A stretch of DNA of 64,000 nt from an uncultured Clostridia bacterium (GTDB taxonomy: Bacteria; Bacillota; Clostridia; Oscillospirales; Acutalibacteraceae), in NCBI GenBank assembly GCA_944384835.1, contig CALWUU010000022.1, forward strand, positions 1 through 64,000, in the 5' to 3' direction. How positions within the stretch are numbered: the first letter of the stretch is position 1; each line of letters starts with the position of its first letter. The notes under the pieces were generated by a model that made no database searches, had not been told where the DNA came from, and saw nothing but the letters and a program-made list of their open reading frames with translations. A program made the translations under genes and the position numbers. Shown here one piece after another: positions 6,725-63,346 of the stretch.

Positions 6725-7378
6725 ATGGCAAGTACATATGCAAAGTCTTCAAAAAAGAATCGCTCAAAACATAAAAAAATGCCTTCCTCAAAAAAGTTTA
6801 TTTATTCTTTGGTTGGAATTTTAATGATAATCTGCATTGTGCTTGGCATTTATTTTGTCAGCGGCGGAGAAGAACAGATTCAAAGGAGTATTCATCCTTT
6901 GGAATACAGCGAAATCGTAGAGCGTGAGGCGCAAAATTACAATATAGACCCACTGCTGGTATATTCTGTGATTAAGGCAGAAAGCAATTTTGAGGCAGAT
7001 GCGGTTTCCAGTGTAGGTGCTATGGGACTGATGCAGATTATGCCTGAAACATATCAGTGGCTGGCTTCCAGAGAAGGAATCACAGAAGTTTCACAGGAGG
7101 ATTTGCTCAATCCCGAAATAAATATTAAATATGGTTGTATGTTTTTGTCCATACTATTGGAGAGATATCCGCAGTTATCTTCAGCTGTAGCCGCTTATAA
7201 CGCGGGATTTGGCAATGTAGATGAATGGCTGGAGGATATTACTATTGCACCTGACGGAGAAAATTTGGAGAATATCCCGTTTCCTGAAACTGAACAGTAT
7301 ACAGACAAAGTATTGAGAAACTACCAGCAGTATCAAAGATTATATGGAGACATAAATTCACAGGAAGCAAATATTTAG
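6725..7378 (+). CDS. Membrane-anchored lytic transglycosylase (SLT domain)
   Basis: Cleaves peptidoglycan glycan strands to 1,6-anhydro ends outside the membrane. A basic N-terminus (KKNRSKHKK) is followed by one membrane segment at about residues 25-46, then an SLT catalytic domain. The catalytic Glu is E86 in KAESNFEADAVSS, with GAMGLMQIMPET and AVAAYNAGFGNV downstream, the standard goose-lysozyme-like motifs. Total 217 residues. The start at 6725 lies 6 nt after the coaE stop region and downstream of GGGAGGCAAGG. A longer in-frame extension to 6638 would overlap coaE and lacks a ribosome site. It resembles the small transglycosylase commonly found after coaE in Clostridia. Confidence 0.9.
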   Translation: MASTYAKSSKKNRSKHKKMPSSKKFIYSLVGILMIICIVLGIYFVSGGEEQIQRSIHPLEYSEIVEREAQNYNIDPLLVYSVIKAESNFEADAVSSVGAMGLMQIMPETYQWLASREGITEVSQEDLLNPEINIKYGCMFLSILLERYPQLSSAVAAYNAGFGNVDEWLEDITIAPDGENLENIPFPETEQYTDKVLRNYQQYQRLYGDINSQEANI

Positions 7379-7391
7379 GAGGTAATGAATC

Positions 7392-8804
7392 ATGAGTAAA
7401 AAATCAGAAAAAACATCCGTGGAAAAATTGACGGAAGAATTGTTGATTAACCGCAAAAATGGTTTTATGGACGTAACAGACGAACAAGTGAAAAAAGCTG
7501 ATAAATTCTGTGAAGGATATAAAACCTTTTTAAATAAAGCGAAAACCGAGCGAGAAGCGGTATTTGAGACCATTGCGTATGCGGAAAAAAATGGATTTGT
7601 TCCATTTGACAGAAATGCTTCTTACAAAGCGGGAGACAAAGTGTATTATAACAACCGCGATAAGTCTTTGATTTTGGCGGTGATTGGTAAAGAAGGCTGC
7701 AAAAACGGCATTCGCATGGCTGCAGCACACATTGATTCTCCCCGTCTTGATTTAAAACCATATCCAATGTATGAAGCCAATGATTTGGTGCTGTTTAAAT
7801 CTCATTACTACGGAGGCATTAAAAAATATCAGTGGACGACCATTCCTCTTGCTATGCACGGACGCGTTGTGCGCCGGGACGGAACCTTTGTTGATATTCG
7901 TTTGGGAGAAGAACCCAACGAGCCGCAATTCTGTGTAACTGATTTATTGCCTCATCTTGGCGCAGAGCAAATGAACAAAACGCTGTCCAAAGCCATTGAA
8001 GGGGAAAATCTGAATATTTTAATAGGCAGCCGTCCCATTCGTGCGGACAAAGGTTCCAATTTGTTTAAATTGAATATTATGAAGCTGATTCATGAAAAAT
8101 ACGATATTGTAGAGGAAGATTTTGTATCAGCCGAAATTGAATTTGTTCCTGCTTTTCCTGCGCGTGATGTTGGCTTTGACAGAAGCATGATTGGCGGTTA
8201 CGGTCATGACGACCGTGTTTGTGCATATCCAGCCATTGAAGCAGCCATTCACTGCAAAACACCGAAACAAACAGTATTGACTGTGTTGGCAGATAAAGAA
8301 GAAGTGGGAAGCGACGGTAATACAGGTTTGAATTCTTCCTTCCTGCGTTATTTTGTAGCGGATCTTGCAAGACAGGAAGGGGTGGACGGTTATGATGTAC
8401 TGCGTAAATCCAAATGCTTGTCCGCAGACGTTACAGCAGCCTATGACCCAACCTATGGCAGTGCCTATGAACCTCTGAACTCCTGTTATTTGAACAACGG
8501 CGTAGGCGTTATGAAATATACAGGCGCACGCGGCAAAGCAGGCACTTCCGACGCTTCTGCGGAATTTATGGCTGAAATCCGCAGCATCTTTGACAGCAAA
8601 AAAATTCTGTGGCAAACAGGAGAATTAGGTAAAGTTGACGGCGGCGGCGGCGGAACGGTTGCTATGTTCATTGCAAATTTAGATGTTGACGTCATTGATG
8701 TAGGCGTTCCTGTAATATCCATGCACTCTCCGTTCGAAGTTGTTTCCAAATTAGACGTTTATATGACATACCTTGGCATTGAAGCATTTTTTGAAGCAAA
8801 ATAA
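7392..8804 (+). CDS. M18 family aminopeptidase
   Basis: A 470-residue cytosolic zinc aminopeptidase of family M18, which removes N-terminal residues (often acidic) from peptides. The N-terminal metal motif AAAHIDSPRLDLKP, the ADKEEVGSDGNTGLNS segment with the catalytic and bridging acidic residues, and the C-terminal MHSPFEVVSKLD histidine motif are all visible. The glycine run GGGGGGTVAMF near 417 is typical of the family. Start ATG follows AGGAGGTAATG, 14 nt after the transglycosylase stop. A hairpin terminator lies about 75 nt past its stop. Confidence 0.92.
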   Translation: MSKKSEKTSVEKLTEELLINRKNGFMDVTDEQVKKADKFCEGYKTFLNKAKTEREAVFETIAYAEKNGFVPFDRNASYKAGDKVYYNNRDKSLILAVIGKEGCKNGIRMAAAHIDSPRLDLKPYPMYEANDLVLFKSHYYGGIKKYQWTTIPLAMHGRVVRRDGTFVDIRLGEEPNEPQFCVTDLLPHLGAEQMNKTLSKAIEGENLNILIGSRPIRADKGSNLFKLNIMKLIHEKYDIVEEDFVSAEIEFVPAFPARDVGFDRSMIGGYGHDDRVCAYPAIEAAIHCKTPKQTVLTVLADKEEVGSDGNTGLNSSFLRYFVADLARQEGVDGYDVLRKSKCLSADVTAAYDPTYGSAYEPLNSCYLNNGVGVMKYTGARGKAGTSDASAEFMAEIRSIFDSKKILWQTGELGKVDGGGGGTVAMFIANLDVDVIDVGVPVISMHSPFEVVSKLDVYMTYLGIEAFFEAK

Positions 8805-8907: not shown

Positions 8908-9046
8908 CAAAAGACGGTAGGTCTCTTTCCAGAGAGCGATATACTTAGATGATTGAAGGCTCGAGAGGGAACGCTTATAGAAAGGATTTCCCGCCGTCCG
9001 ATGATTTCGCAATTTGCCAAGGGAACATTCGTTTTTAACAGTCCGG
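8908..9046 (+). promoter_or_regulatory. Unassigned structured leader upstream of the VanY-like gene
   Basis: The bases contain nested complementary segments: an outer GACGG (8913-8917) with CCGTC (8994-8998), an inner hairpin TCTCT-TTCC-AGAGA (8922-8935), and GGGAA (8967-8971) with TTCCC (8988-8992). This is a junction-like fold. It is followed by a strong terminator only 34 nt before the next start codon, the arrangement of a riboswitch or attenuator. It does not match the T-box, SAM-I, purine or TPP core motifs I can recall. A c-di-AMP-type leader is conceivable because such RNAs precede wall-enzyme genes, but I see no firm match. Confidence 0.4.
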
Positions 9047-9074
9047 CAGGTATGCAAGTGCATACCTGTTTTTG
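9047..9074 (+). terminator. Terminator inside the leader of the VanY-like gene
   Basis: A perfect 9-bp stem, CAGGTATGC (9047-9055) and GCATACCTG (9060-9068), with loop AAGT and the tail TTTTTG. It lies 34 nt upstream of the ATG at 9108, so it would stop transcription before the gene unless bypassed. Confidence 0.85.
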
Positions 9075-9107
9075 TTACTGGCATCAAACAGCAGAAAGGA
9101 TGAAAAC

Positions 9108-9911
9108 ATGCGGCCCAAAAAGTTTCGAGCGGAAAAAGTCATGCATACACGTCAGGGTTGGAAGCATGACAATGACGTAAAGCGTCTGCGTATCATTATG
9201 GCATGCATTGCCGCTGCGGTCGTTGTTTTTATTGCAGCAGCAGGCGTAATGATATGGATGGTTTTGCAAGGACCGCTGCAAAACAGCCAAGAAACGGCAC
9301 AGTCTAATTCTGTGCAAACTTCCAGCGTTGCGCTGCCTGTATATGAAAATTCTTTCAATCTGGTATTGGTAAATAAAAACAGGCAGTTAACAGAAGATTT
9401 CTCCATTCAGCTGGTAGAGTTCCAGGGAGTTGAAATCGAGGAACGAATTCGCCCGGCATTAGAAACGATGCTGGAAGATGCAAAACGTGACGGATGCGAA
9501 TTAAAAGTAATAGGCGGATATGTAGATAAAGATATGCAGCAGGCAAAATATGACGAAGAGGTACAGCGATTAATGGACAGCGGAGGTTATACGAGAATCC
9601 GCGCGCTGGAAGATGCCAAAACAACCGTACTGCCGGGTAATTATAGTGAGCTGCAAACAGGTATGGCAGTACAGCTGTCTTCTGCGGAAAATCCAGATGC
9701 TGATTTTGGTACAACAAAAGAGTTTAGATGGCTTGAGAAAAATTCCATTCGTTACGGCTTTATTCAGCGGTATCCATCCAGTAAAATCACAGCTACGGGA
9801 CATATTGCATCCGATACTCAATTCCGTTATGTTGGTACGGAGCATGCTACAAAAATGAGAAGTCTTGGCATGTGTTTGGAAGAATATGATACTTATGTAC
9901 GCAATCGTTAG
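9108..9911 (+). CDS. Membrane-anchored VanY-like protein lacking metal ligands (probable pseudoenzyme)
   Basis: A 267-residue protein with a basic N-terminus, one membrane segment (about 29-53) and an external domain with the M15B (VanY, D,D-carboxypeptidase) layout: LVNKNRQLTEDF at 87-98, GGYVDKDMQQ at 136-145, PGNYSELQTGMAVQL at 176-190 and FRYVGTEHA at 239-247. The zinc and catalytic residues are gone. The usual SEH has become SEL (L182), the aspartate of GLAxD is Q189, and the EPWHFRYVG tetrad is S-D-T-Q (235-238). The fold appears kept, so it may bind muropeptides without cleaving them. Start chosen at 9108, seven bases after AAAGGA. It stands behind an attenuator-like leader. Confidence 0.75.
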   Translation: MRPKKFRAEKVMHTRQGWKHDNDVKRLRIIMACIAAAVVVFIAAAGVMIWMVLQGPLQNSQETAQSNSVQTSSVALPVYENSFNLVLVNKNRQLTEDFSIQLVEFQGVEIEERIRPALETMLEDAKRDGCELKVIGGYVDKDMQQAKYDEEVQRLMDSGGYTRIRALEDAKTTVLPGNYSELQTGMAVQLSSAENPDADFGTTKEFRWLEKNSIRYGFIQRYPSSKITATGHIASDTQFRYVGTEHATKMRSLGMCLEEYDTYVRNR

Positions 9912-10017: not shown

Positions 10018-10224
10018 ATGAAAGAAAATACACACCCAAAGTTTGAAAAAACTACCATTAAATGTGCATGCGGAAATGAAATCGAAACAAGATCTACAAA
10101 AGATAACATCCGCGTAGAAATTTGTTCCAAATGCCATCCTTTCTTTACAGGTAAACAAAAACTTGTAGATACAAGCGGCCGTGTTGACATGTTTAAGAAA
10201 CGTTATGGTATGCAAGATAAATAA
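10018..10224 (+). CDS. rpmE: 50S ribosomal protein L31 (zinc-binding type)
   Basis: A 68-residue large-subunit protein. It is the zinc-binding C+ form, with C16 and C18 (CACGNE) and C36 and C39 (CSKCHPF). The C+ form also serves as a zinc store in Bacillus, where a C- paralogue replaces it under zinc limitation; no paralogue is in this window. The C-terminal [11 protein letters not shown] is typical. The ATG at 10018 follows GAAAGAGGTG. An in-frame extension to 9934 overlaps the promoter and is not used. Confidence 0.96.
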
Positions 10225-10385: not shown

Positions 10386-11015
10386 ATGGAATCATACCGT
10401 ACGGTGAAACAGGAAACCAGCGCAGAATTTATCGAAAAACGTTCTAAATTTATCGGCTATATCAAACCGGTTGAGACTGAGGAAGAAGCCATTGCTTTTA
10501 TTCAGAGCATTAAAGCGAAGCATTGGGATGCTACTCATAATGTGTACGCATATTCATTAAGAGCAGGACAAACCCGCCGTTATTCGGATGATGGTGAACC
10601 CCAGGGTACTGCTGGAATTCCCACTTTGGATGTATTGCAAAAAGCAGAAATTACTGATGTGGTAGTGGTTGTTACCCGTTATTTTGGAGGAATTCTGCTG
10701 GGCGGCGGAGGTTTGGTGCGCGCTTATTCCCACGCTGCTTCTTTGGCTGTTGAGGCAAGCGGTATACTCCACATGCGCCAATGCTTATTGGCACATCTGA
10801 CATGTGATTATAACCAATACGGCAGAATTGCATCCCTTATTCCGGAATGCTTTGGTACGATAGATGAAACTGTATTCGAAGATACCGTTCAAATACAGTT
10901 TCATATGGCACAGAATGATTTTCAGACATTTGAAAAACGTCTGGCAGACGTTACCTGCGGAGCGGTGACGGCAAATGTGACAGGAAAAGAATTTTTTGCC
11001 GTTTCTGAGATATAA
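10386..11015 (+). CDS. YigZ/IMPACT family protein (UPF0029)
   Basis: A 209-residue protein with an N-terminal IMPACT (UPF0029) domain and a C-terminal ferredoxin-fold DUF1949 domain. Family marks are visible: EFIEKRSKFIGYIKPV near the N-terminus, HNVYAYSLR, the YSDDGEPQGTAGIPTLDVL loop, and VVVTRYFGGILLGGGGLVRAY. In eukaryotes IMPACT modulates Gcn2; the bacterial role is unknown, though nucleic-acid binding is suggested. Start ATG at 10386 follows AAAGGAG. It stands alone between the rpmE terminator and dgt. Confidence 0.9.
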   Translation: MESYRTVKQETSAEFIEKRSKFIGYIKPVETEEEAIAFIQSIKAKHWDATHNVYAYSLRAGQTRRYSDDGEPQGTAGIPTLDVLQKAEITDVVVVVTRYFGGILLGGGGLVRAYSHAASLAVEASGILHMRQCLLAHLTCDYNQYGRIASLIPECFGTIDETVFEDTVQIQFHMAQNDFQTFEKRLADVTCGAVTANVTGKEFFAVSEI

Positions 11016-11107: not shown

Positions 11108-12103
11108 ATGGCTATTAGAGAACGTACGGAACTGTTGGAAGAGCAAATTTTGTCATCTTTTGCCACTTTGGCAAAAAAGACAAAAGGAAGGCAGCGGCCG
11201 GAAACAGAATGCGATATTCGTACGGCATTTCAAAGGGATAGAGACCGCATCATACATTCTAAATCGTTTCGGCGTTTAAAGCATAAAACACAAGTGTTTC
11301 TTTCTCCTGAAGGGGATCATTACCGCACACGTTTGACGCATACGCTGGAAGTAGCTCAAATTGCCCGTACAGTTGCAAGAGCTTTGCGTATGAATGAAGA
11401 CTTAACAGAGGCCATAGCTGTTGGTCATGATCTGGGGCACACGCCGTTTGGGCATGCAGGCGAGAGAGCATTGAGAGAAGTCTCTCCGCTGAATTTCAAT
11501 CACAATGAACAGAGTGTCCGTGTGGTGGAACGTTTGGAAAAAAATAACCAAGGTCTCAATTTAACATTCGAGGTGAGAGACGGTATTCTTTGTCATACAG
11601 GTCCAAAGCTTGCCGATACGCCGGAAGGACGCATTGTCCGTTTTGCTGACCGCATTGCTTATATCAACCATGACATTGATGATGCCGTACGTGCGGGAGT
11701 GCTGCACCCCGATGACATTCCACGCAGTTTGACCGAGGTACTGGGGAACACCACATCAGCCAGAATCAATACCATGGTCATTTCGCTGATTGAAAACAGC
11801 ATAGACGGCAATATTCAAATGGATGATGTGGTAGGACACGCTTATCATGAAATACATAAATTTATGTTTGATAACGTATATCGAAATCCTCAGGCAAAAG
11901 ACGAAGAAACAAAAGTACCTAATCTAATTAAAACATTGTACGAATACGTATTGCAGATAGACCATCTACCAAGTGACATGCAGCAAATTGCGGAACAGGA
12001 AGGCATAGAACGTGCCGCCTGCGATTATATTGCAGGTATGACAGACCACTTTGCAGTAGCGCTGTTCCAAACAATTGTAGTTCCAAAATCTTGGGGAATT
12101 TAA
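11108..12103 (+). CDS. dgt: dGTP triphosphohydrolase-like HD-domain protein
   Basis: A 331-residue HD-superfamily enzyme that hydrolyses dNTPs to nucleoside and triphosphate. The HD metal site is present: H78 (RLTHTLEVAQ), the HD pair 107-108 (AVGHDLGHTPFGHAGE) and the later aspartate in ADRIAYINHDIDDA. The N-terminal FQRDRDRIIHSKSFRRL is diagnostic of the dgt group that neighbours dnaG in Clostridia, and dnaG does follow here, 24 nt away. The start ATG follows AAAGGTGGTG. Substrate preference within dNTPs cannot be read from sequence. Confidence 0.92.
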   Translation: MAIRERTELLEEQILSSFATLAKKTKGRQRPETECDIRTAFQRDRDRIIHSKSFRRLKHKTQVFLSPEGDHYRTRLTHTLEVAQIARTVARALRMNEDLTEAIAVGHDLGHTPFGHAGERALREVSPLNFNHNEQSVRVVERLEKNNQGLNLTFEVRDGILCHTGPKLADTPEGRIVRFADRIAYINHDIDDAVRAGVLHPDDIPRSLTEVLGNTTSARINTMVISLIENSIDGNIQMDDVVGHAYHEIHKFMFDNVYRNPQAKDEETKVPNLIKTLYEYVLQIDHLPSDMQQIAEQEGIERAACDYIAGMTDHFAVALFQTIVVPKSWGI

Positions 12104-61678: not shown

Positions 61679-61712
61679 AGTGTTACAACTTTTTGGGAAA
61701 AGGAGGAAATAT

Positions 61713-62624
61713 GTGAAGCAGACTATTTACATTGATGTACTGCTGGCTGTCAATATCTTTATTAATTACTTTTTACTGCTTGCTGCAGCAAAATTTTTGG
61801 CAGTGCGGCGAATCCGTCTCAGAATTTTAGCAGCCTCTATATTGGGCGCGGCATACTCGCTTACCATGCTGCTGCCGGCAATCCCTATGGTACTGGCTCT
61901 TTTAATGAAATTGGCAATGTCTGCATCGCTTATATTCATTGCTTTTCCCTGGGGAGGTAAAAAACAATTTCTAAAATCGCTTGCTTGTTTTTATATTATG
62001 AATTTTGCATTTGCAGGCTTCATGATGGCAATTTGGTACTTTATTTCACCGCAAGGCATGATCATTAAAAATTCTATTGTTTACTTTAATATTTCGCCAA
62101 TCATTCTAATTGGTTCAACAGCTGTATGCTATGTTGTCATTCGCTTGATTTACAGGTTTATTGGAAAACACGAGGTTTCGGGAGGATGCTGCACTGTTAC
62201 AATTGTATGGAAAGAGAAAACCGTGGAATGTAATGCAAAAATTGACACAGGTAACAGTTTGGTAGAACCTTTTTCTCATTATCCTGTGATAGTAATGGAA
62301 TTGGAACCGCTGTCTGAAGTGTTTTCAAAGCATTTATGTACTTTTTTTCAGGAGAAAAAATGGGAATATCCCAGCAATACAGCAGAGAGTGAAGAGATAC
62401 CAAAAATCAGAATGGTACCGTTTCAGACCATTTCAGGTGTGGGTGTGCTTCCTGCGTTTGCGCCGGATAAAGTTGTCATAAAATCTGCGAAAAAACAAAT
62501 AGAGACAGAAGATGTATATGTTGCGGTGTGCCAAGAAAAAATTACAAGCGACGGTTTTAAAGCGCTGTTAAATCCGGATTTATTTTCACAAGGCAAAGAA
62601 ACAGTTATGGGGAGGAAATGCTGA
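61713..62624 (+). CDS. spoIIGA: Sigma-E processing protease SpoIIGA
   Basis: The membrane aspartic protease that cuts pro-SigE in the mother cell. The 303-residue protein has five hydrophobic segments in the first 150 residues and a cytosolic protease domain with the catalytic DTGNS at 178-182 (AKIDTGNSLVEPFS). The C-terminal KALLNPDLF is typical. The start is GTG at 61713, nine bases after AAAGGAGG; the ATG at 61711 is out of frame and is followed at once by TGA. Its stop overlaps the sigE start (TGATG). Confidence 0.92.
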   Translation: MKQTIYIDVLLAVNIFINYFLLLAAAKFLAVRRIRLRILAASILGAAYSLTMLLPAIPMVLALLMKLAMSASLIFIAFPWGGKKQFLKSLACFYIMNFAFAGFMMAIWYFISPQGMIIKNSIVYFNISPIILIGSTAVCYVVIRLIYRFIGKHEVSGGCCTVTIVWKEKTVECNAKIDTGNSLVEPFSHYPVIVMELEPLSEVFSKHLCTFFQEKKWEYPSNTAESEEIPKIRMVPFQTISGVGVLPAFAPDKVVIKSAKKQIETEDVYVAVCQEKITSDGFKALLNPDLFSQGKETVMGRKC

Positions 62625-63346
62625 TGAAACAACTATTTTTACAGATGAAATGGGTACAAACAATTCTGCAGTGGTGGATAAACAGAAAATATCGAGAGGC
62701 TATTCATTATATCAACGGACCGGAAACACTGCCTGCGCCGCTTTCTGCTGAAGAAGAAGCAAAAGTAATGGATAATATACGCAATAATGTGGAAGGCGCC
62801 AGAGAACCTTTGATTACGCACAATTTGCGTTTGGTTGTTTACATATCAAAAAAATTCGAATCAAGTTTTGCCAGCGTAGAAGATTTGATTTCCATTGGCA
62901 CCATAGGATTGATTAAAGCAGTAAACACATTTTGTCCCGATCGGAACATTAAACTGGCTACCTATGCGTCAAGATGTATTGAAAATGAAATTTTGATGTA
63001 TTTAAGAAAAAGCGCTCAATTAAAGCATGAAATTTCGATTGATGATCCATTAAATGTAGACTGGGACGGCAATGAATTGCTGCTGTCAGACGTATTGGGG
63101 AGCGATCCGAATTTGGTAAATCAAAATATAGAAAAGCAAGTAGAACGAGATTTGTTAATGGCGGCAGTTTCGAACCTATCTCAGAGAGAGAAAACAATTA
63201 TGCAGCTGCGTTTCGGATTAAATCAGGAAACAGAGCACACGCAAAAAGAAGTTGCCGATACCTTGGGAATTTCTCAGTCTTATATTTCAAGACTGGAAAA
63301 AAGAATTATGGAACGTTTAAAAAAAGATTTAGAACGGGTGGGATAA
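62624..63346 (+). CDS. sigE: Sporulation sigma factor SigE (pro-form)
   Basis: Early mother-cell sigma factor, 240 residues. The N-terminal 27-31 residues (LQMKWVQTILQWW, then YREAIHYINGPETLPAPL) form the pro-sequence removed by SpoIIGA. Region 2 is LRLVVYISKKFESSFASVEDL, with IGTIGLIKAVNTFCP and LATYASRCIENEILMYLR; region 4 is QKEVADTLGISQSYISRLEKRIMERLK. ATG 62624 is 8 nt after GGAGG; ATG 62618 is too close. Directly follows its protease gene, as in all spore-formers. sigG, usually next, is absent here. Confidence 0.96.
   Translation: MKQLFLQMKWVQTILQWWINRKYREAIHYINGPETLPAPLSAEEEAKVMDNIRNNVEGAREPLITHNLRLVVYISKKFESSFASVEDLISIGTIGLIKAVNTFCPDRNIKLATYASRCIENEILMYLRKSAQLKHEISIDDPLNVDWDGNELLLSDVLGSDPNLVNQNIEKQVERDLLMAAVSNLSQREKTIMQLRFGLNQETEHTQKEVADTLGISQSYISRLEKRIMERLKKDLERVG

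Follow-up and report, generated by a model that had tools for sequence, protein, structure and literature searches.

The window (the whole 64,000-nt stretch of DNA that was analysed) encodes at 9108-9911 a protein that is almost certainly a pseudoenzyme. The product is a real VanY/M15B-fold protein by descent and by fold. Alignment and modelling showed that its domain lacks every residue for catalytic zinc binding and carboxypeptidase action. A whole group of gut-type Clostridia retains dead copies of this kind, which are under strong selection and probably serve as a regulator or adaptor, not as an enzyme. The overall explanation that we moderately favour is a maintained, membrane-anchored pseudoenzyme that would work by contacting other proteins at the outer face of the membrane.

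An earlier note on this DNA had given the open reading frame, its coordinates and its residue numbers, all of which are right with the start at ATG 9108. The gene (pseudo-VanY), its flanking signals and the parts of its product are as follows.

9108..9911, + strand: coding sequence of pseudo-VanY, a zinc-less VanY-fold pseudoenzyme, 267 aa plus stop (translation, Pfam, orthologues)
9093..9099, + strand: Shine-Dalgarno-like AGAAAGG, 8 nt 5′ of ATG 9108 (sequence)
9045..9070, + strand: intrinsic terminator-like hairpin in the gap between the M18 gene and pseudo-VanY (sequence)
9108..9188, + strand: residues 1-27, positively charged N-terminus, predicted to be cytoplasmic (membrane side from the positive-inside rule)
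9189..9266, + strand: residues 28-53, single membrane helix (AlphaFold helix 21-53)
9267..9344, + strand: residues 54-79, Ser/Gln-rich linker of low confidence (pLDDT 41-60)
9345..9908, + strand: residues 80-267, VanY-fold ectodomain (pLDDT mostly about 97; Foldseek against VanYB)

The kinship with the M15B/VanY family is far beyond chance. The protein scored 67.7 bits against Pfam PF02557 (VanY; E 1e-18, cut-off 25), and phmmer matched it to VanYB structures with E 1e-28. PF02557 was the only Pfam domain found; an M23/LytM domain was not among the hits. The score with the NCBIfam model vanY_BG was 121 bits, far under the resistance cut-off of 400, so an identity as a glycopeptide (vancomycin) resistance vanY was rejected. 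A mobile origin was rejected as well, because phage and plasmid collections gave only relatives at ≤36% identity; the best plasmid matches were vanYB clusters.

An AlphaFold2 model was built with 31 family sequences. It had a pLDDT of about 97 across most of the ectodomain, a disordered linker and a long helix at 21-53, which backs the membrane anchoring proposed before. Structure prediction against VanY had been suggested as a check, and it returned the M15/VanYB fold and no non-M15 fold. Foldseek aligned the model with VanYB 5hnm at a TM-score of 0.91 (target-normalised) and 1.7 Å over 179 columns; the fold matches were M15 and not M23. A Ruminococcus bromii member that is 30% identical to the window protein has the same fold (target TM-score 0.86-0.88 against VanYB). 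The cytoplasmic tail is conserved inside subgroups, not clade-wide, and its motif EK..K....W....QV is present in the close orthologues. The R. bromii subgroup (L131, L164, L083, L125, L132, L139) has a strongly conserved tail of its own, SPYDKKRYKESKRRRRQA...TG.I.P, which differs from that of the window's subgroup. The differing tails hint at subgroup-specific cytoplasmic contacts.

The active site was compared with VanYB, in which the reference motifs read SEHQLGLAVDI and NEPWHYRYVG. The alignment confirmed the reported replacement of the zinc ligands and the catalytic Glu: L182 stands for the ligand His, Q189 for the ligand Asp, S235 for the catalytic Glu and Q238 for the second ligand His. 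It also revealed a fifth loss that had not been noticed earlier, namely the active-site Arg of GYR, which is V139 here. In LdcB of Streptococcus pneumoniae the equivalent residue is Arg120, which holds the carboxylate of the product (PMC4087270). Position 237 has likewise lost its Trp. Three segments carry these changes.

9516..9524, + strand: GYV (137-139), active-site Arg of GYR replaced by Val (alignments; LdcB Arg120 in PMC4087270)
9636..9677, + strand: GNYSELQTGMAVQL (177-190), first motif, with His replaced by L182 and Asp by Q189; Q183 is newly conserved in the clade (alignments)
9804..9836, + strand: IASDTQFRYVG (233-243), second motif, with Glu replaced by S235, Trp by T237 and His by Q238; RYVG is kept (alignments)

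None of the five active-site residues is kept, and the window protein thus has neither the His-Asp-His zinc ligands nor the ExxH Glu nor the GYR Arg of a VanY D,D-carboxypeptidase.

A single-protein search of the genome contigs found no close relatives, and an alignment was needed to recover them. By profile search we gathered 88 dead ectodomains, which were confined, within the searches made, to one bacterial family. This family includes Caproiciproducens- and Anaeromassilibacillus-type genera, Acutalibacter and R. bromii. Acutalibacter, R. bromii and Clostridium sporosphaeroides are among the named carriers, the last with a tetrad that has lost just its first His; the same profile search also matched Caproiciproducens faecalis and Anaeromassilibacillus. 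No member has all three zinc ligands, two members have two, 24 have one and 62 have none. Arg139 is present in 2/88 members and Trp237 in 0/88. At position 238, His is kept in 23 members and Cys is found in 13. Position 182 may be L, Y, F, S, N, A or K, and position 189 E, R, T, K or Q. Even in the six genomes of the window's genus the tetrads are LQSQ (the window and G004), YNEH, YIEH, YDNH and ACRQ. The earlier note had asked whether orthologues share the substitutions. The loss is indeed common to the clade of 88, but the exact residues differ between lineages, and residue-by-residue sharing was rejected. No orthologue in the clade keeps the His/Asp/Glu/His set, which leaves the pseudoenzyme reading unrefuted, and no alternative ligand set is conserved clade-wide among the 88 sequences.

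The dead copies are clearly maintained. Nearly all of them have open frames, and dN/dS was 0.04-0.18 in most pairs with unsaturated synonymous change, which is the range of the intact paralogues. The five closest pairs gave 0.04-0.13 and most others less than 0.2; one pair, L127/L121, was an outlier at 0.59. The comparison of the window protein with G004 was saturated at synonymous sites. By column entropy, 182 and 189 are the fourth and fifth most variable of 175 columns in the dead clade and are invariant in the intact group. By contrast, the dead clade shows no variation at G185, G217, R221, R240, V242 and G243. The active site has been released and the scaffold has not. New constraints have also appeared in the clade: V or I at 139, Q183 (82/88), R251 (79/88) and a basic residue or Met (R/K/M) at 165. 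Those at 183, 251 and 165 suggest a new interaction surface. The proposal of a maintained pseudoenzyme is therefore supported by fold, by a loss shared among 88 members and by purifying selection.

Two quick trees placed the dead copies together. Against 43 intact HDEH copies and two independently degenerate paralogues they formed one clade (SH-aLRT 97). Since shared loss could itself attract sequences, the tree was rebuilt with all motif and active-site columns removed, and the clade persisted (SH-aLRT 99). From the phylogeny, the dN/dS values and the column variability, it appears that catalysis was lost once in the clade and that the folded protein has been kept since. Zinc or catalytic residues are also gone from other VanY paralogues of the window's genus: L009 (G002) with SEYITG/QPWR, L013 (G003) with SEYETG/QPFH and L021 (G002) with SEYHTG/QPYH. 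L009 and L013 lie outside the main dead clade. These losses are independent; thus VanY was inactivated more than once in the genus.

The gene lies in a recognizable locus, with the following neighbours.

10018..10224, + strand: rpmE (ribosomal protein L31), conserved downstream neighbour
10401..11015, + strand: YigZ-family gene, conserved downstream neighbour
11108..12103, + strand: dgt-like dNTPase gene, conserved downstream neighbour
7392..8804, + strand: M18 aminopeptidase, upstream neighbour in the genus, not family-wide
6725..7378, + strand: SLT lytic transglycosylase, upstream in the genus and in two other lineages (L090, L121)

Pseudo-VanY precedes rpmE-yigZ-dgt in all six genomes of the genus, with the M18 gene upstream wherever the contig reaches. 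Within the DNA searched, about two thirds of the 88 dead copies adjoin rpmE and/or yigZ, compared with 0/43 intact copies. This location spans many genera, although it is patchy in the window's own family (2/28 evenly drawn genomes). Across the lineages compared, no neighbours were conserved beyond the rpmE-yigZ-dgt housekeeping genes; in other lineages the upstream genes, named by eye, were pyruvate kinase, Thr-tRNA synthetase or NadA. Two upstream processing genes had been offered as functional context. The one at 6725 is a lytic transglycosylase, whereas that at 7392, an M18 aminopeptidase, is not a wall enzyme. The argument is weak in any case because the upstream genes differ across the family, and functional linkage by neighbourhood was rejected, as these genes vary by lineage and give no partner. 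In a subgroup without rpmE linkage (L106, L107, L109, L112, L114-L116), the genes upstream of the dead copy are nadA, one resembling a flavin reductase gene and one that by eye appears to be of the SpoVAC type.

The rpmE-yigZ-dgt block is also conserved in a second family of the order, where it mostly lacks a VanY. One of its genera has a VanY directly upstream of the block in three genomes (loci L224, L225, L226, and L195), with the tetrad HDKH, i.e. intact zinc ligands and Glu replaced by Lys. The HDKH copy was placed among the intact copies in the free tree, and a single clade of HDKH and the dead group was not rejected (p-AU 0.53). A stepwise loss, the base first and then the zinc, is possible on these sequences.

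As to function, pseudo-VanY is predicted to be a bitopic protein in which a basic cytoplasmic tail, one helix and a flexible linker carry the VanY/M15B domain on the outer membrane face. The domain might dock on a wall hydrolase or synthase by protein-protein contact, and the docked enzyme might be tethered or switched at the membrane in the manner of degenerate LytM factors. Whether protein contact is the mechanism seems to us an evenly balanced matter. The adaptor or regulator reading is preferred on two grounds. The floor of the pocket varies freely, in contrast to the fixed scaffold and a few newly fixed positions. There is also a precedent in DipM, whose degenerate LytM domain uses a groove to bind autolysins (PMC10336132). 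Against protein contact, the conserved neighbours are housekeeping genes and point to no partner, the rpmE-locus gene is found in so few genomes of its family, and the tail is not conserved clade-wide. In addition, Q144 (82/88), Y222 (75/88) and S or N at 180 are partly kept, which fits residual ligand binding. These retained residues keep alive the main rival, in which the cleft, though zinc-free, would go on binding stem peptides with a terminal D-Ala, so that the protein could serve as a muropeptide sensor or link the membrane to the wall. In LdcB, Gln125, Ser151 and Tyr191 contact the terminal D-amino acid (PMC4087270), and they map by alignment to Q144, S/N180 and Y222; the membrane helix and the subgroup-conserved tail could carry a signal. 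We nevertheless regard such a receptor or tether as rather unlikely. The cleft floor (182, 189) is among the most variable places of the protein, and this variability speaks against a conserved sensor pocket and puts a scaffold or regulator ahead. Moreover, the Arg needed to hold the carboxylate is missing, and Q144 and Y222 may be kept for the fold only.

The remaining explanations are less probable still. Pseudo-VanY could be a dominant-negative or regulatory partner, as a heterodimer or decoy, of an active VanY paralogue in the same cell. Of the 46 genomes that carry the dead gene, 41 do have another VanY-family gene, including that of the window, whose other VanY (C2:36928-37320) has an intact HDEH. 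However, G079, G262, G138, G250 and G276, four of which are ≥99% complete, have no other VanY. As the dead copy is the sole VanY in these five genomes, a simple role as partner to an active VanY does not fit; an obligate partnership is contradicted, and the idea as a whole is improbable. That the protein is still an enzyme by another route, whether with a metal site that has moved or is atypical or with a different chemistry, is highly improbable. The Cys or His at 238 might act as a ligand in some lineages, and pseudoenzyme reviews caution about migrated catalytic residues (PMC10211241), but the ligand positions show no substitute set common to the clade and the window protein lacks all five active-site residues. 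It is hardly credible that the gene is decaying and on its way out, a view already largely refuted. The active-site residues vary freely and the gene is missing from many family genomes at the rpmE locus, yet the frames are open nearly everywhere, dN/dS is low, scaffold positions are invariant over 88 sequences and the locus is conserved over many genera.

Among known systems, the M15B D,D-carboxypeptidase VanYB (PDB 5zhf, 6a6a, 5hnm; PF02557) has the same fold and domain length as pseudo-VanY and shares the framework motifs SE.QTG, YGF..RYP, RYVG and CLEEY. It differs in that pseudo-VanY has lost all zinc ligands and the catalytic Glu, Arg and Trp and falls far below the resistance-gene cut-off. 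The L,D-carboxypeptidases LdcB/DacB (PDB 4ox5, 4oxd, 4mph) also have this fold; the equivalents of Gln125, Ser151 and Tyr191 are largely kept in pseudo-VanY, whereas the zinc site and the equivalents of Arg120 and Glu204 are lost. Degenerate LytM factors (EnvC, NlpD, DipM; M23) likewise retain a LAS-group peptidase domain after loss of metal ligands, and a non-catalytic wall role is plausible here too. However, they have the M23 and not the M15 fold, are Gram-negative proteins and have demonstrated autolysin partners. We raise only tentatively, as a doubtful possibility, that the clade is their Gram-positive counterpart, evolved independently from M15/VanY: a membrane-tethered zinc-less clade of one Clostridia family that would recruit or switch wall enzymes, perhaps reached by stepwise loss, with the HDKH form at the rpmE locus of the second family looking like an intermediate. 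Sonic hedgehog, whose N-domain also uses an M15-related fold for protein contact, is the sole M15 entry in a 2024 review of metallo-pseudopeptidases (PMC11266112). It is an animal signal that keeps its zinc ligands, whereas the pseudo-VanY clade is bacterial and membrane-anchored and cannot hold that zinc.

No dead VanY or bacterial M15 pseudoenzyme was found in the open-access literature searched, and bacterial pseudoenzymes of the M15 family seem to be undescribed so far. If the clade is a regulator, it would be such a family, and a second, independent conversion of a LAS-group wall peptidase into a control protein. Automatic annotation names such proteins D-Ala-D-Ala carboxypeptidase or VanY; therefore wall-trimming and resistance-like functions are over-counted in gut bacteria. 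The residues of interest for function are Q183, R251, Q144 and Y222. Elsewhere in the window, at 61680-63346, translations read by eye revealed genes for a SpoIIGA-like protease and a SigE-like sporulation sigma factor, which suggest that the lineage is spore-forming.
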